Shown piece after piece: positions 9,147-48,746 of a stretch of DNA of 64,000 bases. The stretch spans positions 434,001-498,000 of the forward strand of contig CP038110.1 of NCBI GenBank assembly GCA_004519485.1, in the 5' to 3' direction. The notes beneath the pieces were generated by a model. It made no database searches and was not told the origin of the DNA. It saw only the letters and a list, made by a program, of their open reading frames with translations. Positions within the stretch are counted from its first letter, which is position 1. Every line of letters begins with the position of its first letter. Both the position numbers and the translations under genes were made by a program. Origin of the DNA: Nannochloropsis oceanica (Eukaryota > Sar > Eustigmatophyceae > Eustigmatales > Monodopsidaceae).

Positions 9147-11276
9147 TCATGCCGTCATTTCTCGCCCCAGCTCCAGCTCCAGCTCCTGCTCCTGCTCCTG
9201 CTCTTTCTCTCGTTCCTGTTCCTCCACCGCGCATCCCCCCCCATCCTTCATCATCAACGCCGCGTACACGTTCCGATGTGCCCGACAAAAGAACAGATCC
9301 GACAACCCCTGCTTCCCCTGATGCAAGCGTCTACACCCCTTTACTTGACACTTTCCTCCCCCACAAGACTCACACAAGTATCCAGGAGTTCTATACCGAT
9401 TCCTACACCCAGGTGTCCGACACAGACGGTTTGGCCGCTTATCAAACCAGCTCCCGAGTAGTATCTTGGGGGTGGGAACGATGACAAAACTGGCTGGGTC
9501 CATCGAATATTTCCGACGACTATGACGATTGACCGTCTTGAGGGGGGGCCAGTACCCTCCCCCTATCCCTCCGCTGCTTGCGGTGGTGGTGGGATGGAAA
9601 GGGAGAATGAAGGTGGCAGTGGAAGAGCTGCTGCTGTCGCCGGTGATGCTACTCCTGGTGCTGCTATACCCCTCTACATGGACCGACCTCCTCCGGCTCC
9701 TGCTGCCCGAGTCTGCGGCAAGAGCAGCAGCTGCTACAATGGCAGCATTGCGCCTGATCCTCGAGGTGGCGGGCAGAGAATGATGATGCGGCAACTCCTC
9801 ATCATCCTCTTCAGAAGTGGTCAAAGAGGGAGAAGAAATCCCACCACTCGAGCCTATGTAGGCTTCCGCTCCCGCGCTCGACGCAAAATGAGTTTCATAA
9901 TTTTCCGTCGTAAGCAAGCGCAGCTCCTCCTCACTACCGTTGATGCTGCTGCTACCGCTGCAGGTGCTGCAGGTGCTACTGCAGCTGCCGATGGCAACCT
10001 CTTCCTCCCCCTTATCGTCGTACAACACGGAGGCTCGATTGGTGATACAGCCTGCCGCATTGATGTTGCAAGAGCTGTTAATGTGCGGGTGTAAGCTATC
10101 TGTGGTATTGCCGTGGCGATAGAGGCAACACGGGGAGGTGATAGGGGCGGGGTTCACATCAGCTTTCAAGGTGCAGGATCGCTCGTGCAGATGGTGCTGG
10201 TGGTGTTGGCAGTGAGGCTTAAGGGGATGAGGATGAGATGAGAAGGAAGGCAAGATTGTCTTCTCAATGCTATTGGCAATGGAGGTGCTTGCATCGCGCT
10301 GATAATATGGTTGCTGGTGATGCTGCTGGTGGTGCTGGTGGTGCTGGTGGTGGTAGGAGTCGAGGCCTTGCCTTTCGCTGTTTATTTCCACAGAGGAAAC
10401 TTGGTTCGTATGTGCCATGTAATGGGAAGCGTCAGACAAATAATGCTTTTGCTGCTGCCGCTCTTGTTGACCATGGTGGGGTCGCGGGGAAAATGAATAG
10501 CTATCGGCACGATGCTGGGTCTGCTTGTACTTGTGCTGGTGCTCGGGGTGATACGAATATGGGGAGGGTTGTCGTTCGCCTTCTGCTCTATCCAGGGGAA
10601 AGGCATACAGACTGTGCCCTGAGCCGCAAGTTGCGTGTGTAGCAAGCATGTTCACATCCACGCCCTCCAGATGGCCCACGGCGTCCGCCAGGAAGTTGAG
10701 CTGTGGTTCATGTAGGTGTAAGATGTTAGTGACTGCTGGATCGACAGTAGAGATCAGAATGTACCGAATACACCCATACATGCACCCAGTAACATAATTT
10801 ACCTCCATCATCGTCGATTCGATAGGATCTCCAATAACCGCGGTTGGACTCATGCACGTGCTGGCAAATTCGTCGGCCCCGATACCACCTGCATCATCCC
10901 CTCTGCCTCTGGTACAGGCGACCCCTCCTCGGACCCGAAGGCGGGAGAAAGGGGAGTCTGAAATATGCAGCAAGAAGTCGCATGAATCGTCAGGCATCGC
11001 CACCCCTTTGGCTTGTTCTGATACATCTTGCTGCTGCTGGTGCTGGTGCTGCTGGGGTGGCCCATAACTGACTGGGGGCTGCTGTTCTGCTTGGTGAGGG
11101 GACTGGCAGTGTCCCGCAGCCTTTACAGGGTCCGGACTGGCCGGGATGTCAGTGGCATCGAGAGAGGCTTCCAAAAAGGCATTGTCATTCTCGTAAAGGG
11201 AAGAGGTGGCACCAGCAGCGGGGGAGGAGTGGTTGTCGGCACAAGAAGGGGTCGACAGAAGTCGAGAAGGTACCAT
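9147..11276 (-). CDS. Unknown low-complexity protein with a Cys/His-rich zinc-binding-like module
   Basis: The frame begins with ATG at 11276 and encodes up to 709 residues. Most of it is disordered, with His-, Gln-, Ser- and Asn-rich runs. The only structured-looking part is near the C-terminus: LCRTPGCRNRYRTPGYLCES, then CGGGKCQVKGCRR, then FFCRAH. Eight Cys and a His are spaced like a repeated C-x4-C/H zinc-binding unit, loosely reminiscent of WRKY19-type zinc fingers of stramenopiles. It ends in a Glu/Gln-repeat tail. A likely intron lies inside at 10701-10802: donor GTAAAT, branch-like CACTAAC, acceptor CACAG, 102 nt, no stop. Splicing would leave 675 residues. A DNA-binding or regulatory role is a guess. 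Confidence 0.6.
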   Translation of the reverse strand: MVPSRLLSTPSCADNHSSPAAGATSSLYENDNAFLEASLDATDIPASPDPVKAAGHCQSPHQAEQQPPVSYGPPQQHQHQQQQDVSEQAKGVAMPDDSCDFLLHISDSPFSRLRVRGGVACTRGRGDDAGGIGADEFASTCMSPTAVIGDPIESTMMEVNYVTGCMYGCIRYILISTVDPAVTNILHLHEPQLNFLADAVGHLEGVDVNMLATHATCGSGHSLYAFPLDRAEGERQPSPYSYHPEHQHKYKQTQHRADSYSFSPRPHHGQQERQQQKHYLSDASHYMAHTNQVSSVEINSERQGLDSYHHQHHQHHQQHHQQPYYQRDASTSIANSIEKTILPSFSSHPHPLKPHCQHHQHHLHERSCTLKADVNPAPITSPCCLYRHGNTTDSLHPHINSSCNINAAGCITNRASVLYDDKGEEEVAIGSCSSTCSTCSGSSSINGSEEELRLLTTENYETHFASSAGAEAYIGSSGGISSPSLTTSEEDDEELPHHHSLPATSRIRRNAAIVAAAALAADSGSRSRRRSVHVEGYSSTRSSITGDSSSSSTATFILPFHPTTTASSGGIGGGYWPPLKTVNRHSRRKYSMDPASFVIVPTPKILLGSWFDKRPNRLCRTPGCRNRYRTPGYLCESCGGGKCQVKGCRRLHQGKQGLSDLFFCRAHRNVYAALMMKDGGGCAVEEQEREKEQEQEQELELELGREMTA
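10701..10802 (-). other. Probable 102-nt stop-free intron of the Cys/His-rich gene
   Basis: On the minus strand GAG|GTAAAT...CACTAAC...CACAG|CTC has the expected donor, branch and acceptor order. The 34 codons inside are Tyr/Cys/Ile-rich and unlike the surrounding disordered protein. The length is divisible by three and there is no stop, so retained and spliced messages both stay open. Confidence 0.65.
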
Positions 11277-12440
11277 CTGTTTGTATTTTCATATGTGGTT
11301 GTTTTCGCGGTCAACGGGGCATGCAAATTCATTGAACGTGAACGCGCGAGCCCTTCATCTAGTAGACTGCGGCCGGAGGATCGCTGGGCCAAGGGACCGG
11401 AGGGTCGCTGAGCCTCCGGACCACGGCGCAGAACGGACATGAATGCGGAGAGAGAAAGCCCATCACAAAGATGCTGTCCGACTAGAAGTTATGCTTAGGA
11501 AGCATAATATGTGAGCGGCCCCGCGACTTTGGGCGAGCGTGGGTTTAGAGCTTGGTATCGATCTGCGCTCTGCTGCTAGTGTACGTGGGATCCAAAGCAA
11601 ATGCAAACTCTCAGGGTGTCTCGGTTGGACAAGCTCGGACCATGGTTGATGAAATAAAAAACCAGCGAGAAACGGGTAACAGCGATAAGCGATGGGCGTC
11701 TCACAACGGCGTCTTCTTCGCCAAGGAGTTCGTGCTGCAGGTTTATGGGTCGCTCAATAGAAACTGTGTCGTCTCTTTCCATGATCTTCGGTACAAGCAT
11801 GACCACGACATTGCTTGTGGTGTGTCCGTTTCATGGCTATACTGCGTGCTGAGTCGTGCGGTCCTTTGATTTCTTGGCCCTGTCCTGCAGCAGGTTCTAA
11901 GGAAACGTTGCACAAGGAGGGGGAGATCATGGAAGAGGCCATTACCATATCTGCCAAATAGGTCACATGGATTCGTATAACGATTGCTCTTCCTCGCCAT
12001 TCTTCTTGCTTTGCTTCCAACTCCTTTTCCAGTCTATGGCAGAGGCCAAGCTGCGTTGCCACAGAGGGCATGAAGATACGTAACTCCGTTGCTCCTTTTC
12101 CCCCTTCTTGCATTGCTTTCACCTCCTTCCCTAGACCGCGGATATCCCTCTTCAGAAGGCAACTGATTTAAGTTCCACTGGAGAAACCTGAGCACACAAA
12201 GTAATCAAACACAGCAAGTTCGCCAAAGGTCGCATCAGCATTCATTCTCTACTTCTTTCTTTTCTCATCTCCGTAGCTCGCTTCATTTCTCTTTGATTCT
12301 CATTTGGCCATTCATGGAAACATAAAGCCGCCCGTCTTGAGTCCTTGAGTACATCTATGTCTATGCCTCTATGTATGTATGTAAACACGCTTCCTGCCTC
12401 ATTCAATCTAACTCTACCCTCCTTCCCGGGCACTCCAACT
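11277..12440. other. Spacer with one doubtful minus-strand open frame
   Basis: Mostly spacer between the Cys/His-rich gene and the F-box gene. A minus-strand frame at 11754-12122 (122 codons) has a plausible amphipathic helix (LGLCHRLEKELEAKQEEW) but no family I recognise. It could be a small gene, a terminal exon or chance. Confidence 0.35.
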
Positions 12441-15400
12441 CTAATCCATCATCTCTCCCCCATCCTCTCCGACCTTCCTCTCCTCCTTCCTTTCCTCCTC
12501 CTCCCTTACACGAAAACTTTTCAACATGGCCACCGTCGCCGGTATAGGTTGCAAGCACACCATGGCATGCCCTTCTCTATGTCCTTGATACTCCTCCTTC
12601 GCCCATGCCCGGCCCTGAAACCGGTACCGGTGCGTCTCCACCGGCAGCTGGCGACAGGCCTGACACAAGTCATAATCCTGGCATATACAACATTTAAACC
12701 GTGGGCCCTTGAAATCTAAACAACCACACCGATCGCAACAAAACCCCAAATGCCTTCCCAAACTGTACTCCAGCGTTTCCCGTGCATTGGTATGGGCATG
12801 TTCGAAAAACGTGTTGCGGACACGGAAGCGTTGAGTCCCCAACTTTTCAAACAAGTCAGCCACTGTGTCAAGAAGAAGACGAGGGCGGAGACGGGAGCCT
12901 CGGGGACGAACACAGAGCGAGGCATCGGCCGAGAGGGACACAGGGAGGGAGGAAGGGCGGGGTTGCTGCAGCATAATGGAAAGCGGACAGCGTCTTTCCT
13001 CAACCTTGGCGGTTGGGCCCGTCCAATCAACGACTGAGGCTGCTTCCGTTAGCAAGGCATGCGCGAGATTCTGATATGCCCGTTGCACTTCCCCTTCCTG
13101 TCCCACCAGAAAGAAACACAGAATCTGTCCATTTTCGAGCCGAAGATCTTTGAGAGTTTTGGTCGGGTGATAGTCCAAGCACCGGAAATGCGATCCTCCC
13201 CTTTCGTATTCCTCATGCTTCTGACAATCCTGCCGGTCAAGTGCCGCCGTACTTCCACCCCCCACTCGCTCCACCCCACGCCCTCCGTTTCCCTCTCCAT
13301 CACTCAATGCAGGAGACTGCCAGTTCGTCGGTGGTGTCTCGACGACAATCCGAAGCCCCTTCCCTCCTCCCTCCCTCCCTCCCTCCTCCTCAGGCAGTGC
13401 CTCTTTGGACATATAATCCAAGAGGAATTTAATGGGCGTAGTGATGGGAAGGAGGGCATGTGCCCAAAACTCGATGGAAGATTCACTGCTACTGCTGCTG
13501 CTGCTACCGTCAAGAGTGATGGTGGTGGTGGTGGTGCCGTGGGTGGTAGTAGTGGTGGTATTCGTGTCATGTCCAGAAGGGACTAGACACTTCAGGAAGA
13601 GGAGGATGGAGTAAGGAGGCTCCTGCTCCTGCTCCTGCTCCTCGACCTGCTGTAGAGCGACATCGACAGCACTGTCAGCACCCAAAGGAGGAGGAGGAGG
13701 AGAAGGAGAAGGAGGAGGGGCATGATCCTGGTCGTCGCCTAACAGATCGTCCTCGCCGTCCTCCACGTCGTCGTCCTCCTCGTCAACTTCATCCATCATC
13801 ATCGGCAGCAGCGGCTGCTGCTCATGCTGCATCACCGGCTCCTCTTGCTGCTGCTGCTGTCCCCCTCCCTCATGCATACCCCCGACTGGTGCTGCCACCA
13901 CTTCCGCTGCTTCTACTACTGGTGGTGGTGGTGGTGGAGCTGCTGCTGCCAATTCACGCCACTCCGTGTGCCCCGCGGGTTCCAAAGGGTCAGGCAACAT
14001 CCTCAACCCCGGGGGAGTTACTTCAAGCGCCTCCTCCTTCCCCACCCTCACCAATCCCGCCCTTGCTTTCCCTCCTCCTGTCGCTGATTTCAGCCCACCA
14101 TCCCCAGCAATCTCCACCCACACCCTCGCCTCGCCCACGCTATCCACATGTGCATCTAGAGCCATAGCGAGCGTCTGGTGCTCTTCCAATGTCTCAATCG
14201 AGGCCTCTGCCCAGTCCAAGTCCTCAGGCAGGGAGGGATGGTCGGAGGGAGGGAGGCTACGAACAAGCTCGCGGGGAGCAGCGGGCAAGTCCGCCCATGG
14301 TTGGGTGACAGTCCAGAGGCGGAGGGAGGAGGAAGAGGAAAAAGTCAAGGAGGGCGGGAGCAGGTCCCGGGCAAGGAGGCGGCGGAAGGCGGCGACGGTC
14401 ATACATTGAAAGACCTCGTAGACCCGGAATGGTGGTGGGTGGGTGGGAGCGAGGGAGGAAGAGAGGGAGGGGTTGGAGCTGTCGGTGTCCTTAGTGGGAG
14501 GGGCGACAGCAGTGGTGGGTGCGCACGTCCAGGACGCGGGGGACGAGGACGGGTTGGCAACTGCCGAAAGAAGAGGAGGAGGAGGGGGAAGAAGAGGAAG
14601 GGGGTTCAAATCCAACTCGTCCTCCTCCCCTTCCTCCTTCGCCTCTTCCCTCCCTTCCTCGTCTTCATCTTCTTCCTCCTTTTCCTCCCCCTCCTCTTCC
14701 ATGCCCTCCTCCATCTCCATTATCACCCCTCCCAATCCTCCTTCTCCATCTCCTAACCCTTCTATGTCAACCGCCGCCGTAAACGCCACCTGCGGCTGCT
14801 CCGCGGGTACCAAAGGAGGAGGCGGGGGGGGAGGGCTTAAGCACGACCTAACCTTCCCCCCCCTTGCCGTGAGAGCCGCATTGCTGAACTCAGCCAGGCC
14901 AAACCCTCGATACCCCTTCATTGCGTCCGACGTGAACAGTTTCAACGACAAACACGCCAGACGCAAATGGGCCTGGACTTTGATGGATCCCTTCTCGGAT
15001 AGATAGCCGTTGGCATGTTCTTGTAAGCGGCGGAGGGAGACGAGGCGATGCACCCCCCATTCACGGCAATTGGGTTTAAACCGATCGTGGAGCAGGTTCG
15101 ATACTCACGGTAAGTTACGCCGAGCGCCCGTTTGGTTGACCACTGCCAAAGCGAAGGCCACGCAGCATTCCCATGTGTCGATAGGAGGCAGGCCATTTGC
15201 GCTGTGGATGTTGGGGAGGTAGTCGGCCATGGGATCCATGCACAGGCGTCCAGAGGGGGAGAGGCCGCGGACGTACTGGGTAGGGCAGCAGGTTAGATAG
15301 ACCGAGACGCCGGGCTTGGCGAGGGGTACGTAGGGGTTGCCGTTGGGATCGACGATTAGTTGGAAGGTGTAATCGCCCAGGAGGAAGGTGGGGGAAAAGC

Positions 15401-15809
15401 GGCGGGCGGTGTTGGTCAGGCAGTCGGTGACTTCCCATTCGAAGAGGGTGGAACGATCCCGCCGGTTCTGATCGCGGAGCAGCGTTTTCCATTCTCCGTT
15501 GTAAAGTTGGAGGGCTCCAAGCTTTTCGGCGTGGGGGTATGTGACTTGCCCGGCAGCTTCCCATAGGGCAGGATGGTCGCAGCACTCGTAGAGCTCGCAG
15601 CAGACTTGCGCGGAAGTGCTGAGGTCGCGAGCCTCCAGGTGAGAGAGGACCGAGTGAATCACGCCTGTGGGGAGTCGAAGAGATGAACCAAGGGACGCAT
15701 CGTTAGAGCCGCTGCGGCTTGAGGGGCGTACGGTTGTCCCGGGAGGCGGTGAACGAGCAGCGGCGGTAGTCTCGATCTGGGAAAAGGACGGGCCCAAAGG
15801 CGTGGCCAT
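12441..15809 (-). CDS. F-box, MATH, USP7-type ubiquitin-like and ZZ zinc-finger protein with one in-frame TGA
   Basis: From ATG 15809 the frame reads an F-box (about residues 48-92: LPTGVIHSVLSHLEARDLST, VCCELY, ALWEA) and then the first half of a MATH domain (FEWEVTDCL, FLLGDYTFQLIVDPNGNPY, WECCVAFALAVVNQ). A TGA at 15107-15105 interrupts it. The same frame then continues with no shift: DRFKPNCREWG, HRLVSLRRLQEHANGYL (MATH C-terminus), acidic and proline runs, two stretches like the USP7 HUBL/ICP0-binding domains (FRVYEVFQCMTVAAFRRLL; SILLFLKCLVP, PITTPIKFLLDYM, ENGQILCFFLVG), and a C-terminal ZZ finger (CDRCGC, FKCCICQDYDLCQAC). The total is about 1122 codons. USP7 has MATH, protease and Ubl domains; here no USP protease is visible. 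A role as an SCF substrate receptor is inferred. The TGA may be an assembly error, a true interruption or a readthrough site. Confidence 0.75.
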
Positions 15810-16421
15810 GGTGATGGCTCGGTTTTTTCCACTCCCGCTCCTCCTCGTCCTGACGCGTGCCGCGGCAAAGAGCGCCCTGGTGGAAAGCTTGATGTGGCAG
15901 TGATCAATGCGGATCGTTTGGGAGAGGAAGAGGGAATTTGAAGGCCGTCCCGCTCGAAAAATATTACCCTCCTCGGTCCTGGCTTTGGTTCGGGGAGAGG
16001 GGAAGGATTGGAAGGAAAAAGTGAGCTCGTTCGTTCAACGAAGTTCTTTGTGCGGCGGCCAAAGACAGGGAGAGGGACGACGGGGGTAGGACGCTCGGAT
16101 AGTTACTGAGTGAGGAGGGAGATTACGTGAAACGTGCCATCAGCTCCACATGTTTTTGCACAGCAAAAGGGCGAGAGGAAGTAGAGTTATGCAAGTGTAA
16201 CACACGCCATACCATACACGTTGAACATGAACATCAGGTCTCTTATCTTCTTGCTCACTCACCACTCTGCTCCCCATACACTCTCTTCACCAACGAAACC
16301 TTGTGCAGGACACGGTGTTGTTGTCAAGGTCATAGCATATTAAAGAAGACCGACGGCACAACCGTCCGCTTAGGTGGTTTCTGCGTTGTTCCGTCCGCCC
16401 TCCGCACAAGGAGTCTGGAAC
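15810..16421. other. Head-to-head spacer between the F-box gene and PDAT
   Basis: About 610 bp of promoter sequence shared by divergent genes. No TATA-like or other motif stands out with confidence. In-frame codons just upstream of the PDAT ATG contain no ATG. Confidence 0.5.
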
Positions 16422-19400
16422 ATGAGCCCGCAAGGAGAGGACGGCGGCCCCGCCGACTCGACGACGACGAGGACGACGACGTCTGAGGCGATGGCCATGC
16501 CGGCAGGAGCAGCAGGGACAGCAGCCACATCTGCATCAGACAGTCCTAGCAGTCACCAAGATGAAGGGGGTGGTCCTACCCAAACGGTCCACCGCGGGCC
16601 ACACCCGGACATTCACGACCAGGGGGACAAGACGAAAAAGAAGAAAAAGAAGAGGAAGGATAGAAAACTCCAGAATGAGAGCGAGGACCAGCAGCAACAA
16701 GACACCGACAGCCACGCATCAAGTCGCCCCACCACTCCGATCAACATGACCCCTCCCCGCTCATCCCACGCCCGCAGCCCTTTCGGCGCTGGCTCTCCAT
16801 ATGAACATACCCTCACACCTTCCAACATCGACATTACCGTCCTGGAAGGACTTGCCAGCGGCGTGGGCAGCAATAATGGCGGGCCTTCCCGTGACAACAC
16901 CCCCAGCCGCAGCCCCTCCCGCCGCTCACGTCACGCTCGTCGGGCCAAAATCGCCGCTACTACCAAGAAACGTAAAATATTGGGTAGTTTCATCCTTGGT
17001 GCTATCTTCGGAATGAGCATTTTGGGGTGGGTACTTCGTCACAAGTACCCACAGTACGTCCCCTCCCTCTCCCCCAACCTGAACCTCAACATCTCCGCTG
17101 TCCTCCCCGCGGGGTTTGGCCTCGGCCTAAGTGCGGGGGAGTTAAACAGCACTATCCTCACCGATATATATGGATACATGTCCTGGGCTTCTACTCCGGA
17201 GACGTACCCGGGCCTACAAGCGGCAGAAAAGAATTATAGTGCCAAGTATTCAATTGTCTTAATCCCGGGGTTTGTGACGACGGGCTTGGAGGTCTGGCAG
17301 GGGGAGGAGTGCGCGAGCAGCTTGTTTCGGAGTCGCTTGTGGGGGGCAGTGAGCATGTTGCAGGTACGTACGTGCACGTGAGGAAAAACACGTGAGGATA
17401 GACTAGATACCTCCCTTCTTCCCTCTTTCTTTCCCCCCATCAATGATGGACCACTCCCTCCCTCCCTCCCTCCCTCCCTCCAGACCATGCTAATGAAGCC
17501 CGAGTGTTGGACGAAGCACATGGCGCTCGACATGGAGACAGGGCTGGACCCGCCCAACATACGGATAAGAGCGGCACAAGGACTGGAGGCCGCGGACTTC
17601 TTCATGCCAGGGTTTTGGGTTTGGGTGCGTGATTGAGGGAGGGAGGGAGGGAGGGAGGGAGGGAGGGAGGGAGGGAGGGAGGGTTCAGCAAGGAACACAC
17701 ACTTATTCGATTCACCCCCATTTTCGACTTCTTAGGCGCGTCTTATTCGAGATTTCGCTGCGATCGGGTACGATCATTCCAATCTCGCCCTTCAGTCTTA
17801 CGACTGGCGGCTCTCCCTCCACGACCTCGAGCGACGCGACCACTATTTCACCCAGCTCATGTGGAAGATCGAGGGCTTGGTGAAGATCAATAAGGAGAAG
17901 GTGGTGCTCGTTGCGCATAGGTTAGGAAGGGAGGGATGAGGGAGGGGGGGAAGGAGGAAAGGAAGGAGGGGAGGGAGGGAGTGAAAATCTCCCTCCTCGG
18001 CTGGAGCTGTCGGAGCGGATCTCTCACTCATATACTACTGTCTCCCTCCCTCCCTCCCTCCCTCCCTCCGTTTACCTCTCAGCTACGGCTCTAACGTCAT
18101 CGTCTATTTCTTTGCCTGGGTCGAATCCCCCAAGGGCGGGAACCGGGGAAAGAAGTGGTGTGAAACGCACATTAAGACGTTTGTCAACATTGCCGGGCCG
18201 TTACTCGGAGTGGTGAAGAGTGCCTCAGCGTATGTGAGTGGGGAGATGCATGATACAGGTAGGCGCGGGAGGGGTAAAGGGATGGAAGAAGGGACAGTAA
18301 AAACATGATTGATGCTTTGGATTTCAAATCAGAAGCGTCTCATTCGACTCACCTTCCCCTTCCCTCCCTCCCTCCCTCCCTCCCTCCTTCCCGCCCTTAC
18401 TTCCCTTGTGCCGCCCATAGCCGAGCTAGGACCTCTGGAAGGCATTTTGTTCGGCAAGAGCAACAACGCGTTCCATCGGACCAACCGTCGGCGTTTGTTT
18501 CGAAGCTGGGGGAGCCTGACTGCCATGCTACCCAAGGGAGGCAACCAATTATGGGGTAATTTGACACACGCTCCGGAGGATTTGGAATGGGACGTGGTGG
18601 TTTCAGGGGTGGGAGGGATGGAAGGAGGGATGGAGGAGACGTGTTTGCCGCATTTGGAGAAGGAGACGGGAACCTTCAGCTCGGAGGAGATGGAGGGGAA
18701 GAAGAGGGAGGGGACTCGGGACGGGGAACCTGCAGCAGCAGCAGCAGCAACAGAGGCTGCAACAGGGGCAGATGGGATCACAAGAGAAGAAGGAGCCAGA
18801 GGGGAAGGAGGAGAAGAGGCCTGTATCACGCATGGTGAAGCGCGTCGGCATCCTCTGCACCATGGACAGATATTGGAGTTCACCCCGCTCACCCCCCTTG
18901 TCGCTGATGCTGATGCTGCCCATGCTGCTGCTGCTCCTCCTGACAGGCCCCCTCCGCGGCTTTCTGATACTACGTCACGTCCTTCCAAAAGCACGAATCG
19001 GAGCGTGGAAGGAGACCACCAGACGGCTAAAAGCGCCGAGGAGGCAGCAGCCGCAACCCAGCCAGCAGCTCAGGTGGAAAAGGACGATGCGGCCTCTGCG
19101 GGTATCACTGCCTCTCTGCCTCCTTCGAACAGAACATGTAAGGAGGGGAAGGGGGGCGGGCCGGGCCAGGCAAGGGTGAATTGGACGATGGATGACGTTA
19201 TTCGTTACTTGAGCACCGACCCAGAGGACCCTTATTTGAGGCGAAGAATGACAGAGGATTATTACTTCGGCCCGCCGGTGAGGGACTTTCGGAGGGAGAA
19301 GCACGTGAAGGATGATAGGAAGTACTGGACGAACCCCTTGACTGTGCAATTACCCATGGCACCCTCCATGCAGATTGTGTGTTTCTATGGTGTGGGCAAG

Positions 19401-19811
19401 GCGACGGAACGGGCGTATATTTACAAGGGAGATACGGAGGGACGGCCAGACGTGATGGACATAAGCGTGAGTGACGCTTTGAGAAATATCTCGGGGGGGG
19501 TCGTCAAGGCAGAAGGCGACGGGACCGTTACGCTGATGTCCCTAGGGTTTCATTGCGCACGGCTGTGGAGGGAGAGGGTGCACAATCCCGCTGGCATTGG
19601 CGTGACCACGAAAGAGCTGTGGCATACCACGGGTGGTTTGCTGTCGATGCGCGGGGATGGAGGGAGTGCAGATCATGTTGATATCATGGGGAATACCAAG
19701 ATGGCTGCGGATTTGTTGAAAATTGTGAGTGGGCAGGATGAGGAGGAGGTGTATGGGCAAGATGTGTATTTTTCGAGGATTCGGGAGATCAGCGATAAAG
19801 TGTCTTTGTAG
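16422..19811 (+). CDS. PDAT: Phospholipid:diacylglycerol acyltransferase (LCAT family)
   Basis: PDAT moves an acyl group from a phospholipid to diacylglycerol, making triacylglycerol at the ER. Exons: 16422-17363, 17484-17624, 17736-17920, 18083-18258 and 18421-19811, joined in phases 0, 0, 2 and 1, for 944 residues. Residues 1-185 are disordered. One membrane anchor follows (about 190-207: GSFILGAIFGMSILGWVL). The LCAT core shows IVLIPGFVTTGLEVWQGEEC, the lid-like MALDMETGLDPPNIRIRA, YDWRLS, the nucleophile Ser in VAHSYGSNV (split over the exon 3/4 junction, AG|C), the Asp in EGDGTVTLMSLGF and the His in ADHVDIMGN. All three catalytic residues are present. A non-conserved insertion of about 180 residues, rich in Glu, Ala and Gly, lies between the Ser and Asp blocks (18600-19150). 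Intron 3 starts GTTAGG. Start: first ATG in frame. Confidence 0.95.
17364..17483 (+). other. PDAT intron 1 with (CCCT)n 3' tract
   Basis: GTACGT...CCAG. The 3' end is an extended CCCT repeat (about 17457-17481) acting as the polypyrimidine tract. Confidence 0.9.
17625..17735 (+). other. PDAT intron 2 with (GGGA)n tract next to the donor
   Basis: GTGCGT...CTTAG. Twelve GGGA units at 17635-17683 begin 10 nt after the splice donor. They could form RNA G-quadruplexes or pair with the CCCT tract of intron 1 across exon 2. Confidence 0.9.
17921..18082 (+). other. PDAT intron 3 holding both G-rich and C-rich complementary tracts
   Basis: Donor GTTAGG, acceptor CTCAG. A GGGA/GGAA-rich stretch (about 17926-17985) and a TCCC repeat (18041-18069) in the same intron could fold into a hairpin that brings the splice sites together. 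Confidence 0.9.
18259..18420 (+). other. PDAT intron 4
   Basis: GTAGGC...CATAG, 162 nt, with a TCCC repeat at about 18361-18390 before the acceptor. Coding resumes with GCC (Ala) formed across the junction. Confidence 0.88.
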
Positions 19812-20694: not shown

Positions 20695-22785
20695 ATGGCC
20701 CTGAGCGCCGAGCGCCTGCTGCGGCCTCTCTTCCCTCCCGATGGCCACGAGGACGGGAAAAATGACCACACCTACGGGGAAGACGAGGGTACGCCGGGTG
20801 TTAAGGTGGTGCTGGCGGACTATCAAGGGTGGTGGGCGCCCTTAACACACTTGTTTTACAGCAATGCCTCGCGATCCCTGGTGAGCGCGCATCCTGAAAG
20901 CAGCCTGGAGGAAGTCGAGTCGTTTTACTGCACGAATTGCTTAAACTATTTTGCCGAGGCGGAGGCTGCTGCATCATCTCACCGTTGTCCACAGTGCTTT
21001 GACTGTCCCCAGTGCAAGAGCGCATTGGTCATCATGCCTGTGGCCGCGGACAAGGGCGAGGAGGGAAAGAGCGGTGAGACTAATAGTGATGGTGGAAGCG
21101 GCTACGCCTTCCGATGTGGATACTGCCTATGGTCATCTTCAAAGACTCTGGGGTTGGTTGAAACCAAGCCTGAAGATCTGGCAAAGAGAGTGATGGAGGC
21201 TAAAGCTTCTCCTCAAGACGTCCGCTTTCGTTCGTTGGTAAGCCAGCTCCGAGAGCGCGCGGTGGAGGTGGCGAGAGACCGTCACTTTCGAGGGCGTCGA
21301 TTTATTCACATGGGTGGCGAAGAAAAAGCAGGGGGGAATGGAGGAGGTGGACGACGGTGGCATTTGGAGGACTTGGAGAAGAAGGAGGCGCAGCAGGCAG
21401 CACAGACAACAGAAGTAGCCCAGGACGTGAAACGAACTGCAGTTTTGTACAGTATGGTTGAACAAGAGGAGGAACAGGACAAGGGAAAGGGTAGCGACAG
21501 CAACAGCAGTATTGACAGTAAAAGTGGTGGTAACCGGTCGTATTCTCTCTCGGCCGAAGAGCACGATTCTGTCCCTCCTTCCCTCCCTTCTTTGACCTCT
21601 CTCAACGGCATCACCACAGCAGAGCAACGTCAACACGCCTGCAGCTCCCACCAGCCTTCATCTACCTCCTCCCTAATCCCTATGCGCCGTCTTCTAACGA
21701 GCAAACGCTCACGGCGGTGTCGAGTGGACGTCGAAGAAGGAAGACCCGGTATCTTGTTGAAGCCTAAGGTCAACCCCTTGGAGGGGGATTCGTCGATGAG
21801 AAGTCACGTGGGAAAGTGGTGGCAGAAGGACGCAAGTGCTGTGCATGTGTTACCGTTTGTAAGTGTCGTGCAGGCGCGGGGGTTGGAGTGTGTTTTTCAT
21901 GGAGGGGGAGAAGGAGGAGAAGAAGGAAGAGAAGAAGGAGAAGGAGGAGGAGGAAGAGAAGAAGAAGAAGGGGGAGAAGGGAGCAGCAGTAGGGGTAAGC
22001 CCAGCCCTCTCTCCTTCGTTCTTCGTCTGCGAAATTCGCTCAATGGCAAAGTTAGAATTGCACTTGTCCCACCTCCTACTCCGCCATTAGAGGGCAGCAG
22101 CAGCAGCAGCACCATGCCTTACTACCTCAGGCATCTATCGGTCGCTTTGGGTAGCAGCTTCAGTAGCAGCAGTAGCAGCAGAAGCAGCAGTAGCAGCGGT
22201 ACTTGTAGCAGTAGTCGTACACGTGATTGTAGTTTTGGCGATGACAATATCAACATGAATGTACTTTATGCCTACGTGCCTGCATTGGGCCGCGAGGATG
22301 GGAGGGAACAAGGGAGGGTGGAGGAAGGAGAGGAGTTGGAGCTCGAGGCTTGTGAAGACGAGTATTTGGAGGACGAGAAGGTGGATGAGGATCAAGACAC
22401 CTTGGACATGCTTGCATTACAAATGTTGGAAAGACAGGAATTGGAGGAGAGCAATAACAATAGCAGTAGCACTAGCAGTAGCAGTAGCACTAGCAGTAGC
22501 AGCAGCAGCAGTAGCAGCAGCAAGATGTTGTTGCAACGAAAATCGCGTGCTTGGCTTCATGTGGTGGTGAGGCCACCGTCGTCCCCTCTTTCGGTGGTGG
22601 GCGAGGCAGCTGTGGGGGTGTTGCTGTTTTTGCGGCTTACGAGCGACCGCAGTGAATTTAGCAGTACCCGAGGGGAGACTGCTTCGATAGTTGTGCCTGT
22701 CTGTCTGGCCTTCACGAGGGGGAGCACGGAAAACACACCGGAAGGTGATTTTGTAGGACACCTGACACGATTAGGCTTAGAGTAA
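20695..22785 (+). CDS. DCTN4: Dynactin subunit p62 (DCTN4) homologue
   Basis: p62 is a pointed-end component of dynactin, the activator that links dynein to cargo. The single exon encodes 696 residues, longer than the roughly 460 in animals because of low-complexity insertions. Family signs are the N-terminal Cys-rich region: FYCTNCLNYF (about residues 77-86), HRCPQCFDCPQCKSAL (about 96-111) and FRCGYCLWSSSKTLGL (about 138-153), spaced as zinc-binding pairs, followed by a conserved helical part (VRFRSLVSQLRERA). The C-terminal 60 residues (LHVVVRPPSS, GVLLFLRL, VVPVCLAFT) fit the beta-rich end of the family. Poly-Ser, poly-Glu and Gly/Glu tracts (residues 400-430 and 480-510, and about 580-605) are species-specific. 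Cytoplasmic. Start is the first ATG after a C-rich leader. Confidence 0.85.
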   Translation: MALSAERLLRPLFPPDGHEDGKNDHTYGEDEGTPGVKVVLADYQGWWAPLTHLFYSNASRSLVSAHPESSLEEVESFYCTNCLNYFAEAEAAASSHRCPQCFDCPQCKSALVIMPVAADKGEEGKSGETNSDGGSGYAFRCGYCLWSSSKTLGLVETKPEDLAKRVMEAKASPQDVRFRSLVSQLRERAVEVARDRHFRGRRFIHMGGEEKAGGNGGGGRRWHLEDLEKKEAQQAAQTTEVAQDVKRTAVLYSMVEQEEEQDKGKGSDSNSSIDSKSGGNRSYSLSAEEHDSVPPSLPSLTSLNGITTAEQRQHACSSHQPSSTSSLIPMRRLLTSKRSRRCRVDVEEGRPGILLKPKVNPLEGDSSMRSHVGKWWQKDASAVHVLPFVSVVQARGLECVFHGGGEGGEEGREEGEGGGGREEEEGGEGSSSRGKPSPLSFVLRLRNSLNGKVRIALVPPPTPPLEGSSSSSTMPYYLRHLSVALGSSFSSSSSSRSSSSSGTCSSSRTRDCSFGDDNINMNVLYAYVPALGREDGREQGRVEEGEELELEACEDEYLEDEKVDEDQDTLDMLALQMLERQELEESNNNSSSTSSSSSTSSSSSSSSSSKMLLQRKSRAWLHVVVRPPSSPLSVVGEAAVGVLLFLRLTSDRSEFSSTRGETASIVVPVCLAFTRGSTENTPEGDFVGHLTRLGLE

Positions 22786-28051: not shown

Positions 28052-28973
28052 CTACACCGCCATCTTCATTTTGATGTTCTCCTGCGGCGTGTACCCCTCA
28101 ATCCGAAAATCCTCAAACACAAAGTCGTCGATGCATTTCTTGTCCGGGTTAATGAAGAGCCGAGGAAACTTGGCCGGGGTTCGCGTCAACTGCTCCTTCA
28201 AGGCCTCGACGTGATTCGAGTAAACGTGAGCATCCCCAATTGTGTGCACGAACTCCCCTGGCGCCAACCCACACACCTGCGCCACCAAGCTGGTGAGCAA
28301 TGCATACGAAGCAATATTAAACGGCACACCCAAACCCATATCCGCGCTGCGTTGGTACATCTGGCAGGACAGCTCCCCATTTGCCACATAAAACTGACAA
28401 AACATGTGACACGGGGGCAACGCCATCTTCCCCAGATCCGAAGGATTCCAGGCTGAGACAATGATCCGTCGATCTTCCGGATTTTTCTTTATCGTCTCAA
28501 TTGCATTTGCCAGCTGATCGATGCCCTTCCCGGTGTAGTCCGCGTGCATATCCTTGTATTCAGCCCCAAAATGCCGCCACTGGAAGCCGTACACCGGTCC
28601 TAGGTCTCCCTCCTCCCGATTGCTCAACCCTATTTTGTCCAGGTACTCCCTGCTAGAGTTTCCGTCCCAAATTCCAATCTTTTTGTCTTTCAATAGATTC
28701 GAGTTTGTCTTGCCACTCACAAACCACAGCAACTCCTCCGCGACCCCCCGCCAAAATACCCTCTTAGTCGTTAAGAGAGGAAACACATTGTTCCTGAGGC
28801 TAAATCGAAGCTGTGCTCCAAACTTGGACAAGGTGCCTGTCTGTGTTCGATCCCCCCGATGGTTGCCCTTCTCAATGATTTCGCGGACAAGATCCAGGTA
28901 TTGCTGCTCTTCTTCGTTCCTTTCCTCTTCCTTCTTTCCTCCCCCAGCCGGAGCCGACGCACTGCCCTTAGTT

Positions 28974-29037
<64 letters not shown>

Positions 29038-30157
29038 GGTTGTTGCTGCTGCTGCTGCTACTGCTGCCATAGAAAGGTGGTAAAGCCCTGTAATTCAAAC
29101 GTTCAAAGCGCTGAAAACGGAAGTGCAAATGATTCTGGGTCAAGGTCTCGGTCGAGGTGACGAGTCCATAAACAGTGGCAGGGATGGTAGGGAAAAAGGC
29201 GTCACAATCCGCGAACAGCGGCGTCGGGCTGTTATTCGAAATCTCCCTCTCTCCTCCCTGCCCTCCCTCCTGCCCTTCCTCATCGATGGCGGTGAATTCA
29301 ATGGCTTCGCATAGGTCGGAGGATAAAGCTTCTTTGTAAACAGCAGCCCCGCCGATCACAAACACTTTCTCGACCGCCGTTGCATCCTCCCCCGTGGACA
29401 ACAACGCCAATGCCTCGGGTAACGAGGCCGCAACACGCACACCTTGTGGGAGGTTTAGTTGCTCGCGGATTGCGGGATTGCGGGAAAGGACGACGTTGAG
29501 ACGATTTCGCAGGGGGCGGAATCTCTCGGGGATGGATTGCCACGTCCGACGGCCCATGATGACGGCGTTGGTCTTGTTGGGCAATGTGGTGGACGATGTG
29601 AGGTGTTTGAAATGTGCCATGTCTTCTGGAAGGTTCCAAGGAAGTTGGCCTTGCTTGCCAATGCCCAGGGACTTGGCGGTGGCGGCCACGACGATGGTAA
29701 AACCCCTCAGACCCTCCTTTGTGACGGTCGATGCGGCAGCAACAGCGGTGGCAGCGAGGGGAGACATGGGCTTTTTGGTTGCAAAGTAAGACGGAGTGTT
29801 GGTGCTGCTAGAGCAGGTGCTGGTGCTGGGGCTGGGGGGGGCAGTGGCAGTGGTGCAGTCGAGCACGACAAGCAAGAGGAGCGCAAAGCTGACGAAGAAG
29901 TAGCGGGAGAGAATGGAGAAAGGCTGCGTGACTCCAGCTGGTGGTGACAAGGGACGAGGAGACTGAAGCTTCACTTTTCCACGTGCGCGCTTCGTGGCGA
30001 GAGGGACTGTCCTGTGCGGGATAAAGCAGAATTGATTGGCGAAGCTTAGTTTGTGTGTTTGTGTGAAGGGCAGACGAAGAAGCCATAATGGAGGAAGGTG
30101 AGGAGGCTGAGGGCGCCAAAACATTGAATGCACCCGCCTTCTTCCACGCGTGGTCAT
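28052..30157 (-). CDS. DHFR-TS: Bifunctional dihydrofolate reductase-thymidylate synthase
   Basis: TS converts dUMP to dTMP with methylene-tetrahydrofolate and DHFR recycles the dihydrofolate. The single frame has 701 residues. DHFR (about 145-345): [44 protein letters not shown] and [15 protein letters not shown]. The linker carries poly-Ser and about 20 Asn from a (GTT)n/(AAC)n repeat. TS (about 415-701): [35 protein letters not shown], catalytic Cys in [32 protein letters not shown] and [10 protein letters not shown]. Upstream of DHFR are 130 extra residues with a hydrophobic segment ([13 protein letters not shown]). A second ATG at 29767 (MSPLAATAV) would give a compact enzyme, so organelle targeting from the first ATG is possible but unproven. 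It is head-to-head with dTMP kinase. Confidence 0.96.
28974..29045. repeat. (GTT)n trinucleotide repeat coding poly-Asn in the DHFR-TS linker
   Basis: About 20 TTG/GTT units, read on the minus strand as AAC (Asn), with one GTG interruption that encodes His. It sits exactly in the linker between the two enzymes, where length change is tolerated. Confidence 0.93.
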
Positions 30158-30678
30158 CTTCTTCCTTGCATGTCCTCCTCTGCGTGCTTGTCATCGTAAT
30201 TTTCATGGTCGTGGAGATCTAGTTGGGGTTGGCATAGTGGCAAGTGTGCGGCTATATAGAGGTTACCGCGTTCGCCAGAAACCCTGTGTTGGCGATCGAC
30301 CACTACGCCGACCTCCCCCTCCCTTCCCACACTGTTTTCATGCGTTGAGCCCGAACCCACCGCCAACATCGCAAAGCACAGGCCCTAACCACCCGCAGCA
30401 GCACGACAAAAAAAAACCAAAAACCAACGGTGGCGCGTTTACTTTCCTGGACGTGGCGGAACGCGGCCGTGTTTTCTACCTTGTGTGGTTCGTGGCGGCC
30501 GACTCTCTTGGTCTTTCCAGCTGCCGCCGCAGCATCATCCCTTACTACTACGACGGCTATCTGGCTACGCCCTTCCTCCTCCTTTGCCGCCGCCAGTGCC
30601 GCTGCTTTTTACAGAAGCAGCAATTGTAAGATTCGTCCCTTTCGTCCCCTTTCAGTCGTCAGCACTACTCGCTTGCTC
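30158..30678. promoter_or_regulatory. Shared divergent promoter of DHFR-TS and dTMP kinase
   Basis: About 270 bp from the DHFR-TS ATG to the start of the kinase-side open frame, 520 bp to its first ATG. It contains a TATATA at 30253-30258. ACGCG cores lie at 30146-30151 (palindromic ACGCGT, inside DHFR-TS codons 2-5), 30267-30271 and 30434-30438 (both minus strand). ACGCG is the core of the yeast cell-cycle box that controls dTMP-synthesis genes; use of it here is only inferred. Confidence 0.5.
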
Positions 30679-31401
30679 ATGACGGCCGGAGGCTCTTCTC
30701 AGGCCTCAACTGACAGCTCCGGCACCGGCACGATTAGCACCACCGCGGACATTCAACCCACCAAACAGCGCGGGGCATTAATCGTTCTGGAAGGCGTAGA
30801 CCGTTGCGGAAAAACCACGCAAGTCGCCCGGCTTGTCAAGTCGTTGCGCGCGAATGGGTTGGCGGCGGAAGCTATCCGATTTCCAGACCGCACTACTACC
30901 ATCGGCACGATGATCAATGCGTACCTTGCCAAGGCAACGGATTTAGACGACCACGCTATCCATCTTCTGTTCTCGGCTAATCGCTGGGAGGCGGTGGCGT
31001 CTTTACATAGCAAGCTGGCGGCAGGGACGACATTGGTGTGTGATCGCTACGCGTATAGCGGGGTGGCCTTCTCGGCGGCCAAACAAGGGATGGACATTGA
31101 ATGGTGCAAGCAATGCGACCGCGGGTTGCCGAAACCGGATGCGGTGATTTATTTGGATATTTCAGTGGAGGCCGCGGCGGGGCGCGGGCAGTATGGGGAG
31201 GAGAGGTACGAGACACAGGAGATGCAAGGGAAGGTGAGGGAGAACTTTCAGAAGTTAATGGAGGGGGATTCAATCTGGCATGTTGTGGACGCAGCAGGGA
31301 CGCTGGAGGAGGTGAGTGAGGGGGTGGGGAAGGTGGGTATGGCGACGGTGAAGAAGGTGGGGGAGGGAGAGAGGGGCCTTGAGACATTGTGGCCCTTGTG
31401 A
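30679..31401 (+). CDS. Thymidylate (dTMP) kinase
   Basis: Phosphorylates dTMP to dTDP, the step after thymidylate synthase. From ATG 30679 the protein has 240 residues, normal for the family. The P-loop is LEGVDRCGKTTQ. The dTMP-binding parts include RFPDRTTTIGTMINAYL, LLFSANRWE and DRYAYSGVAFSAAKQGMDIEWCK. The lid and nucleoside part include GLPKPDAVIYLDI and EERYETQEMQGKVRENF. The same frame stays open for 110 codons upstream, back to a TGA at 30346, but contains no ATG. Those codons look like a mitochondrial or plastid leader (Arg, Ser and Ala rich, no acid until late), for example VARLLSWTWRNAAVFSTL. Either an upstream exon or non-AUG start adds a targeting peptide, or the codons are 5' UTR. 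Confidence 0.92.
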   Translation: MTAGGSSQASTDSSGTGTISTTADIQPTKQRGALIVLEGVDRCGKTTQVARLVKSLRANGLAAEAIRFPDRTTTIGTMINAYLAKATDLDDHAIHLLFSANRWEAVASLHSKLAAGTTLVCDRYAYSGVAFSAAKQGMDIEWCKQCDRGLPKPDAVIYLDISVEAAAGRGQYGEERYETQEMQGKVRENFQKLMEGDSIWHVVDAAGTLEEVSEGVGKVGMATVKKVGEGERGLETLWPL

Positions 31402-45381: not shown

Positions 45382-48300
45382 ATGGCTGCTGCTGCCACCG
45401 CCATCACCAGCCACTATGCAACTGTGGAGGACGAGCAAGATGACCTGATTGTCTGCGTTGTCGAGGTATGCGATGATTCTGGCGCGCGGCGCGCCTTGGA
45501 TTTACTTGGTTAGTTGACTAGTTGCCTAGAATAGACTTGAATCTTTAAGATGCAATCTTGAGGAGGAAATTTAATGGCGGGTGCCAGAATAGGTTGATTG
45601 TACAGTGCAGAGCATCACTCCCCATGGAATGTGTGCTCGTGTCTTGTGCAATTAACCATTCCGGGATTTGTCTGACACGGGTATGCCCGTCCTCGACCGT
45701 AAATTGTATGGAAATTCGATAAATTTGACCAGTCTCACCTATCCTGTCTATCTAATATTATCTAAATACCAATTACATCGATCCTTGTGCTTCCCTTCCT
45801 GCTCGATAGCACCCTCCTCTTATGTCCTTCCTACCCGCCCGGCTTCCTCACCTACTCCTCCATCTCTACTAGTCATCCCATGCCTGTCTTGCGCAGACAC
45901 ACCCTTCTAACCCCTCGGGACCCTTTTCATACCCTTCCTTAATCCCTTTGTCCCGTCCCTCCTCCTCACTCCACACGCAGAATCGTGGCCGCGAAGTTGC
46001 CATAGCGACCATGTCCCCCCTTCGGACCCATGTCCTCCAAACCCACGTCTGCCAAGACTCCCAGTCCTATGCCGAAACCATCGACCTCCTCCTCGAACTT
46101 CGCCCCCGGGAAATCCTCCTCCATGACGGTTCACGTAAAAAAACCCTGGCCCAAAAAATCAGCCTGTTGTCGCAGCATCCCGAGGTTCGAGCTCGTAGTT
46201 GCCTCCCCGTGTTTGTGTCCCGGAACTACTTCGACCAGGACCGTGGGGCGGAGTTAGTCAGGAAACTGAGCATGCATACCCTCGATCAAGAGTTGTTTTT
46301 GAGTTATACTTTCTTGGCGTCTGCTCATTGCCTGCTCAAGTACATGGGGTCGACCTTCGCGGTGAGGTTCCCCCCGAGGTGTTTGAAGGTATTGTCCGGG
46401 TATGGTTACGGGGGGCGGTTGGTGATTGACCGGCATTCAGTGAAGGATTTGGAACTGGTGAGTAATGCGAGGACGGCGTCGCAGAAGGAAAGCTTGTTTG
46501 GGTGCATCAACAAAACCAAGACTGACGTGGGGGGGAAGGAGTTGAAGAAAAATCTGCTGGCGCCTCTGACTGATAGGACGACGATTGAGGGGCGCTTAGA
46601 TTTGGTGGAATTCTTGATTGCACAGGGTGGGCCGGAGGTGATTAATTCGCTGCAGACGGCGTTGGGGTGTTTGACGGCACTTGATAGGATGCTGGCGGGG
46701 ATTGCTGTGGTCGAGGTTAAAGAGGATGTGACGAGTGCGAAGAAAATGATTCACACGGTGGTGTTGCTCAAGATGTTCTTGACACAGGCACTGCAGTTGG
46801 TGGATGAGTTGGCGCAGCTCTTGTCTAGACGGAGGGGGGAAGAAGGAGGGGAGGAAGTGGAGGGAGGGGAGGAGGGGGGGATGGAACCACCGGCGGAGGC
46901 ATTGGTAAAGGCGATTATAGCTGCATTAAGCCCTCCGGCATTTGCTGAGATTTCGGCGTTGCTCCAGGAGATGATCTCGGAGAGCACAGTTCATGAGCGA
47001 AATGCCAAGACGCGGCGATTGCAGGAGTGTTTTGCTGTCTCGGCGGGGTTGTGTGGATTGCTTGATGTAAGTACCTAGGGGTCGATTTCGTCCCTCACTT
47101 CTCCCCTTCCTCCATCCATTTCTTCCTCCCTCCCTCCTGCTTGAGCCCAGCTGTGCGTTCTTCCACAACCCCTCTCCCTCCCTCCCTTCCTCCCTCCCTT
47201 CCTCCCTTCCTCCCTCCCTCCCTCCCTCCTCCCCTCCCTCCCTCCCTCCCTCCCTCCCTCCCTCCCTCCCTCCCTCCCTCCCTCCTTCCCTCCCTCCCTC
47301 CCTCAGGTGGCCCGGAAGACCTTCCTTCAATCCGTGGAGGACATCTATGCCCTCGCTTCCACATACGCGAAAGAGCATGGACTCCCCGAGCTTCGGATGC
47401 TGCACAGCACCTCTCGGGGATACTACCTGTCCCTCCCTTCCTCTCTCGTGGACCTCCCCCCCCTCTTCATCCAAGCGTCGGTTGTGAAAAAACAACTTCA
47501 CTGCACGACACAAGAACTAGCGTCCTTGTCGCGCGCAGCAGACGAAAGCGCGAACCAGTGCGTCTTATTGACATGTGCCGTCTTGCGCGATACGTTGCTT
47601 GGCAGGGTCAGGGAGCATGTCGAAAGCTTGTTCAAGGCCGTGGAGGCGATTGCGTTGTTGGACATGATGCTTTCGTTCGCAGACCTGGTGGTGAGTGACG
47701 AGTTGGGGCCGTGGACACGCCCAATAATCTCGGGAGGAGGGGAGGGAGGGAGGGAAGATGGAGCGTTGGCGGTGAAGCAGGGGAGGCATCCAGTGGTGTG
47801 TCATTATGTCCCGGGGTTTGTGCCCAATGACGTGTTCGCGGGGAGGTTCGGGAATGTCGTGGTGGTGAGTGGGGTGAATGGAAGCGGGAAGACCGTGTTT
47901 GTAAAGACCCTGGCCTTAATAGTGGTGCTTGCTCAGATTGGGTGTTTCGTGCCTGCTGAGGCTGCTTCCATTCCTATCCGCGATCGACTATTGACTTCGC
48001 TTTCGACGTCTGATGATATGGAGTGTAACTTGTCCACGTTCATGTCAGAAATGCGACGGGCTGCCTATGTGCTCGACAGCCTCTCCCCTCGCTCCCTCGT
48101 CATTCTGGACGAGCTTGGCCGTGGCACCAGTACCATAGACGGGTCTGCTCTTTCCTACGCAGTTGCCGAAGCCTTGCTTTCTGCCCGGGCCCTGTCTTTC
48201 TTTGTCACGCACTACCGACTCCTTATCCTCTCCCCCGACCAGCACCAAAACGGGGGTCTCTCGAAGTTTTACGGCAATGTGAAGCATATCCATATGTCCG

Positions 48301-48746
48301 CCGTTTTAACGGAGGACACCCGTCAGCTTTCCTTCATGCATCGTGTGCAAGAGGGCCCTTCGGCGATTACATCCGGGTACGGTATTGCGTTAGCGGCGGA
48401 CGTTGGTTTCCCTGAGGACGTCATTGTTGACGCTGAGAGAGTGAAATGTTTGTTGGAGGCGCAAGAAGAGAGGAAGGAGGGAGGGGGAGAGAGGGAGGAA
48501 GGGGACGAGGAGGAGGGATGGAAGTATGAGGTTTTGAGACGGTTGATGTTGTTGAAAGAATGTATTGTGGGGGAGGGAGGGATGGACGGCGGGGTGCAGG
48601 GAGGGAGGAGAAAGACCCAGGAGGAGGTGAGGGAGCTCTTGCAGGCGTTACGGGCGAGTGTGCGATGGACGGAAGGAGGGCGGGAGGAAGGCGCCCTCAA
48701 GGAGGAGCAGGACGGAGGGGCAGCGCCAATGGAGGCGGCAGAGTGA
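45382..48746 (+). CDS. MSH4: Meiotic MutS homologue MSH4
   Basis: MSH4, with MSH5, clamps recombination intermediates and promotes meiotic crossovers. Exons 45382-45465, 45981-47066 and 47307-48746 join in phase 0 to 869 residues. It begins at the connector domain (LIVCVVE|NRGREVAIATM across intron 1); the mismatch-reading N-terminal domain of MSH2/3/6 is absent, as in MSH4. Core blocks: FGCINKTKTDVGGKELKKNL, LAPLTDRTTIEGRLDLVEFL and CGLLD|VARKTFLQSVEDIYALA (intron 2). ATPase: Walker A SGVNGSGKTVFVKT, signature STSDDMECNLSTFMSEM, Walker B LVILDELGRGTSTIDG, switch FFVTHYRLL. The usual GPNMSGKS is GVNGSGKT, still a valid Walker A. The C-terminal 120 residues are Glu/Gly rich and not conserved. 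No disruption is seen. Confidence 0.92.
47067..47306 (+). other. MSH4 intron 2 with a long CCCT repeat
   Basis: GTAAGT...CCTCAG. From about 47164 to the acceptor the intron is almost only CCCT/CCTT repeats, about 140 nt, a hypervariable polypyrimidine tract. Confidence 0.92.

Follow-up and report, generated by a model that had tools for sequence, protein, structure and literature searches.

A predicted two-gene family of Nannochloropsis oceanica joining an F-box to MATH, HUBL-like and ZZ modules, with one copy interrupted by an in-frame TGA

The deubiquitinase USP7 (HAUSP) and the plant proteins UBP12 and UBP13 are built from a MATH domain followed by a C19 protease and the domains HUBL1-5, and USP7 chooses its clients by the MATH and HUBL modules. 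F-box proteins such as SKP2, FBXW7 and FBXO3 carry LRR, WD40 or ApaG docking arms, and SPOP and other MATH-BTB proteins serve as adaptors of CUL3. Some F-box proteins act without CUL1, and in nematodes "F-box and MATH" denotes separate gene families. The MATH domain of USP7 is reported to bind the motif [PAE]xxS and one of its UBL domains the motif KxxxK (PMC13376213), the latter through the HUBL2 residues E759, D762 and D764 (PMC4457826). A single chain that carries an F-box, MATH and HUBL was not described among the titles and abstract beginnings listed from the open-licence PMC literature, and within that scope the original prediction that no described protein has such an order stands.

We examined a gene of Nannochloropsis oceanica within a 64-kb window, the whole stretch of DNA that was analyzed. 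In the open reading frame listing of this window the frame begins with an ATG at 15809 and ends with a TAG at 12443-12441, and it encodes in order an F-box, a MATH domain, two HUBL-like segments and a KCMF1-like ZZ finger (Table 1). As assembled, the locus holds two open reading frames, and the one that starts at the ATG ends after 234 codons at an in-frame TGA inside the MATH domain. The divergent neighbor of the gene (16374-19811) is an LCAT/PDAT-type acyltransferase, with PF02450 at 2.9e-24 in the open reading frame 18309-19811, to which the frame 16374-17381, itself without a Pfam match, was joined by eye.

Table 1. Features of the F-box gene, in coordinates of the 64-kb window
Feature	Position	Strand	Basis or remark
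Whole frame	12441..15809	-	1122 codons (TGA counted as one) plus stop
F-box	15558..15677	-	PF12937 9.5e-9, PF00646 1.7e-5 (Pfam)
MATH domain, ends approximate, cut by TGA	14955..15446	-	PF22486 4.1e-9 with TGA read through
In-frame TGA, codon 235	15105..15107	-	aligned paralog codon TGG (Trp)
Acidic and Pro-rich low-complexity spacer	14430..14852	-	almost wholly missing from the C16 paralog
HUBL1-like segment	14085..14429	-	C16 paralog sequence match 1.5e-6; trimmed alignment; PF12436 on trimmed sequence
HUBL1-HUBL2 low-complexity insert (acidic, Gln, Pro)	13620..14084	-	sequence and alignment
HUBL2-like segment with Thr/Ser and Gly/Glu inserts	13095..13619	-	trimmed alignment, Pfam on trimmed sequence, hhalign; pocket residues R-L-E-N-G-Q
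Conserved segment before ZZ	12756..12884	-	22/40 residues identical to paralog in tested block
ZZ zinc finger, KCMF1-like	12624..12749	-	PF00569 4.2e-5; KCMF1 ZZ in PDB 7e-8; Cys/His positions

The original prediction had placed all of these modules in a single frame and named a profile search as its check. In the Pfam scan the F-box (PF12937, 35.3 bits against a curated cut-off of 24.3), the ZZ finger (above its cut-off, with the Cys and His ligands in place by a position check) and, once Trp is put in place of the TGA, the MATH domain (MATH_2, 37.2 bits against a cut-off of 32) were recovered, and to this extent the single frame is borne out. The proposal fails in the frame as assembled, where the TGA cuts the MATH domain and the part before it scores 22.1 bits alone (1.9e-4), under the cut-off, and it is weakened by the HUBL model USP7_ICP0_bdg, which has no match in the untrimmed frame. 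A genome-wide MATH_2 search scored the C-terminal part of the domain (14994-15176, with the TGA inside) at 26.5 bits, and at 44.5 bits with its in-frame neighbors.

The window's own genome (29,264,788 bases in 32 contigs) was searched with both halves of the window protein, and a single further gene built from these parts was found on contig C16. The F-box and first MATH part match it at 1.5e-33, and matches to the C-terminal half of the protein cover the MATH end (1.1e-8), HUBL1 and the ZZ finger (2.9e-24). The C-terminal half gave 13 matches, one being the window itself and four lying on C16; of the other eight, seven touch low-complexity query sequence only and one (contig C8, 6.6e-5) the ZZ finger. 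The C16 gene keeps the module order in a frame that is open throughout, with one in-frame intron, and is 39% identical to the window protein over the whole alignment. This intron, called from sequence and alignment (GTAAGT...CAACAG, positions 2525-2659 of the extracted C16 locus sequence, L015), is 135 nt long, a multiple of three and stop-free; it divides the ZZ finger, is missing from the window copy, and its removal takes the ZZ score from 0.013 to 6.3e-8. Since the same module order recurs in an open frame, the architecture is more than chance and, judged from the two sequences, this genome holds a two-gene family.

The HUBL segments are the weakest part of the architecture. After low-complexity inserts were trimmed by hand, PF12436 matched the window copy at 3.1e-5 (23.9 bits) and the paralog at 1e-4 (22.3 bits), both under the curated cut-off of 27. 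The two trimmed sequences cover overlapping parts of this same model among 24,736, and besides it the scan returned a single match, to the window copy at E 0.16. Of 10 scrambled controls, made by reversal or shuffling, eight were scanned and none matched any family at E<=10. The genome search with the C-terminal half did not return HUBL2 on its own; it aligns poorly between the copies when untrimmed and aligns once trimmed. A two-copy HUBL profile returned no PDB sequence at E<=10, and an AlphaFold2 model of the paralog HUBL region reached a pLDDT of 32.7 from a two-row alignment with the second HUBL misaligned. We regard a HUBL pair as likely in both F-box copies.

The prediction that the frame lacks a C19 protease was confirmed by the absence of any Pfam match to UCH/C19 and of any Cys-box or His-box pattern, the same patterns matching the genome's own USP7. 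That gene is separate and complete (contig C19, UCH at 2.1e-54). The space between MATH and HUBL in the window copy is, as described in the original prediction, acidic and Pro-rich low complexity. The MATH and HUBL1 parts lie close together in the paralog, and the spacer is therefore specific to the window copy and no mark of a lost protease. The notion of an F-box in place of the protease has accordingly to be abandoned, as the F-box lies N-terminal to MATH and the paralog leaves little room between MATH and HUBL1. A candidate USP core remnant just after MATH ("GFG" beside "TGMVGLKNQGATC") was rejected, its local scores against the genome's own USP7 being equaled by 587 and 1639 of 2000 shuffles, so that no remnant of the core was detected between MATH and HUBL.

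Descent from USP7 was approached through the modules themselves. The MATH_2 search of the genome returned three genes, namely its USP7, the window gene and the C16 paralog, a count that refers to model PF22486 rather than to the older MATH model PF00917. This result makes an origin of both F-box genes from a USP7 duplicate plausible, and their MATH and HUBL modules may go back to a USP7-like gene whose protease was lost. In pairwise comparison with the genome's own USP7, 14 of 500 shuffles scored as high as the window MATH domain and none of 500 as high as that of the paralog; for the trimmed HUBL sequences the figures were 29 and 114 of 500, which is not above shuffles. Aligned by hhalign, both copies together placed HUBL2 at the expected position of USP7, weakly (probability 2.3%, E 0.02), and MATH likewise (probability 1.5%, E 0.034). 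The whole window protein found no USP7 by phmmer, and the paralog reached the USP7 MATH domain at E 0.2 only. At the positions of E759, D762 and D764 the window copy has R, N and Q, the paralog G, N and Q, and the genome's own USP7 E, T and D, in an alignment made by eye against human numbering and in a register with weak hhalign support. As aligned, the three acidic residues of the USP7 KxxxK pocket are replaced in both F-box copies and their HUBL2 pocket differs from that of USP7, a difference that speaks against a simple capture of USP7 clients there.

The TGA at 15107-15105 aligns without gaps with a Trp codon of the paralog and is flanked by conserved residues, R-N and S. The 887 codons that follow contain no stop, against counts of 12, 15, 21, 29 and 37 for the five remaining frames. 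Identity to the paralog is similar on both sides, with 58/131 and 11/22 residues in hand-chosen blocks before the TGA and 15/35, 22/40 and 20/23 in those after it, the last being the first part of the ZZ finger. The lesion is single and, because no later stop has accumulated and identity is alike on either side, we infer that it is younger than the duplication. The window copy may thus be broken by a mid-gene stop; the likeliest readings are a null allele of recent date in a gene that has otherwise been maintained, or a variant specific to the strain.

Readthrough of the TGA, or an error of the assembly or strain, would give the full 1122-residue protein and is a possible though less than probable account. 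In its favor, no other stop interrupts the frame over the next 887 codons, and the TGA codon aligns to Trp in the paralog and, in a weak hhalign match, to an aromatic residue (Tyr) in the genome's own USP7. Against readthrough, UGA-G is not known as a strong context for it, and the fold predicted for a 96-base stretch that spans the TGA and continues beyond it is not unusually stable (z 0.75, with 150/200 shuffles folding at least as well). A mistaken base is unlikely if the sequence belongs to the published assembly of N. oceanica, which was reportedly polished with about 105-fold Illumina reads (PMC6610115); in that case a real change is likelier than an error. A split of the gene into a 234-residue F-box protein and a separate HUBL-ZZ protein started downstream would agree with the two open reading frames as assembled, and we consider it improbable because the break falls inside a domain, leaving a part of MATH on each side, and the paralog is one frame. 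Removal of the TGA by splicing is slightly more doubtful still: the region offers in-frame GT...AG pairs 15 nt and 99 nt long, but either would delete residues conserved in the paralog (R-N, or also the D-R-F...WGVH block), and both are short compared with the 135 nt of the paralog and with the mean N. oceanica intron, reported as 370.9 bp (PMC6610115). Selenocysteine is very unlikely, although two of the genome's five tRNA-Sec matches exceed the gathering score (all 14 control genomes match too, 5 of them over that score), because the partner residue in the paralog is Trp rather than Cys and a permissive Rfam scan of 10800-16400 returned 87 matches, none of them to a SECIS family. The two tRNA-Sec matches above that score stand in tandem at contig C18:642369-642628, and from them the alga probably makes selenoproteins.

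The F-box was also compared with known structures. A two-copy F-box and MATH profile gave 30 PDB matches at E<=1, with F-box only protein 3 best at 0.0069; 27/30 fall on the F-box region, and the remaining three are GAPDH, a chance result. Named F-box proteins or SKP2 make up 22 of the 27, and the other five are KDM2A, KDM2B, cyclin-F, a chain labeled P19 and an "expressed sequence", the first three of which we take to be F-box proteins. The window F-box alone had no PDB match at E<=1. An AlphaFold2 model of F-box and MATH had a pLDDT of 35.2, and Foldseek on it returned 34 matches at E<=10 (best 2.9) that are chance only. By these profile matches the F-box of both copies resembles the SKP1-binding F-boxes. 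The same genome encodes SKP1 (2.3e-28 in the genome search), cullins (two full-length matches among 12) and at least 15 F-box matches, a lower bound that includes both MATH-HUBL-ZZ copies. The proposal that docking modules share a chain with the F-box is thus upheld for the order itself, found twice and once open throughout in a genome with SKP1 and cullins, and not for the window copy as assembled, in which the TGA breaks the chain.

The ZZ finger is closest in the PDB to that of KCMF1, followed by HERC2, BIG, p62 and PRT1. It contains C-D-R-C and D-Y-D, by eye presumably the counterparts of p62 D129, D147 and D149; the C-D-x-C and D-Y-D pattern is common in ZZ fingers. The three p62 residues are reported to bind N-terminal Arg (PMC6197226).

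On balance, and with reserve, we favor placing the window gene in a two-member family of SCF-type F-box proteins whose docking arm consists of MATH, two USP7-type HUBL and a KCMF1-type ZZ finger, with the C16 paralog as the likely working member. The F-box would bind SKP1 and so join an SCF (SKP1-CUL1-F-box) ubiquitin ligase, MATH would bind short linear motifs, the HUBL pair would offer a second docking surface with a pocket unlike that of USP7, and the ZZ finger would add recognition of protein N-termini or tails. The product would be an adaptor of SCF that docks clients by three surfaces, with a specificity of its own. An F-box protein outside SCF, either a scaffold with no ligase role or a competitor protecting clients of the USP7 type, has precedent in the F-box proteins that act independently of CUL1 and seems unlikely here, as F-boxes from solved SCF proteins (SKP2, FBXW7, F-box/WD 1A) are among the matches of the two-copy profile. 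We give somewhat less weight to a bolder scenario, in which a USP7-like gene of this group of algae shed its protease and acquired both an F-box and a ZZ finger of the N-degron type, becoming a ligase adaptor that opposes the genome's own USP7 on overlapping clients via MATH, one copy being switched by a stop codon in MATH. The related idea of the original prediction, that the outcome for USP7 clients is reversed from deubiquitination to ubiquitination, is possible but found no direct support: neither copy has the three HUBL2 acids, their HUBL segments resemble those of the genome's own USP7 no more than shuffles do, and a USP core remnant was not detected.

Searches beyond this genome covered viruses and prokaryotes only and are silent on other algae; none of the candidate relatives in viral contigs (19 pattern matches) or genome contigs (29) was confirmed by tblastn, the pattern around the TGA was absent from the viral contig collection, and the prokaryote-oriented NCBIfam library gave no match. 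Elsewhere in the window, 28052-31401 holds a bifunctional DHFR-thymidylate synthase gene on the minus strand (PF00303 1.3e-117, PF00186 1.3e-30, with a long Asn run) head to head with a thymidylate kinase gene on the plus strand (PF02223 1.4e-45), their open reading frames lying ~270 bases apart. A dynactin p62 family protein with long acidic and Ser runs is encoded at 20695-22785 (PF05502 1.3e-18). A MutS homolog in two open reading frames lies at 45948-48746 (MutS_III 5.7e-20, MutS_V 1e-51, MutS_IV 7.1e-8) and is MSH4/MSH5-like by eye only; Msh4 and Msh5 are listed as present in N. oceanica though loss of meiosis is argued there (PMC6610115).

If the favored assignment to SCF is true, the client-docking arm of a deubiquitinase is re-usable for a ligase, the family is a natural test of whether MATH and HUBL modules carry specificity independent of the enzyme, and it provides a route coupling MATH to a cullin ligase other than MATH-BTB. 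The two algal proteins share with USP7 and UBP12/13 the order of MATH followed by what is likely a HUBL1-2 pair of the USP7_ICP0_bdg type, but no C19 protease was detected in them, nor any match to HUBL3-5 or to the C-terminal part of USP7, and an N-terminal F-box and a C-terminal ZZ finger are added. With KCMF1, HERC2, PRT1 and p62 the window protein has the ZZ finger in common, including C-D-x-C and D-Y-D-L-C and closest to KCMF1, whereas by phmmer it matches no other part of those proteins. Like the SCF substrate adaptors SKP2, FBXW7 and FBXO3, the two proteins begin with an F-box followed by protein-interaction modules, with MATH-HUBL-ZZ instead of LRR, WD40 or ApaG as the docking arm. SPOP and the other MATH-BTB adaptors of CUL3 likewise couple MATH to a cullin-ligase adaptor module; the algal proteins differ from them in having an F-box (CUL1) instead of BTB (CUL3), with HUBL and ZZ as extra parts.
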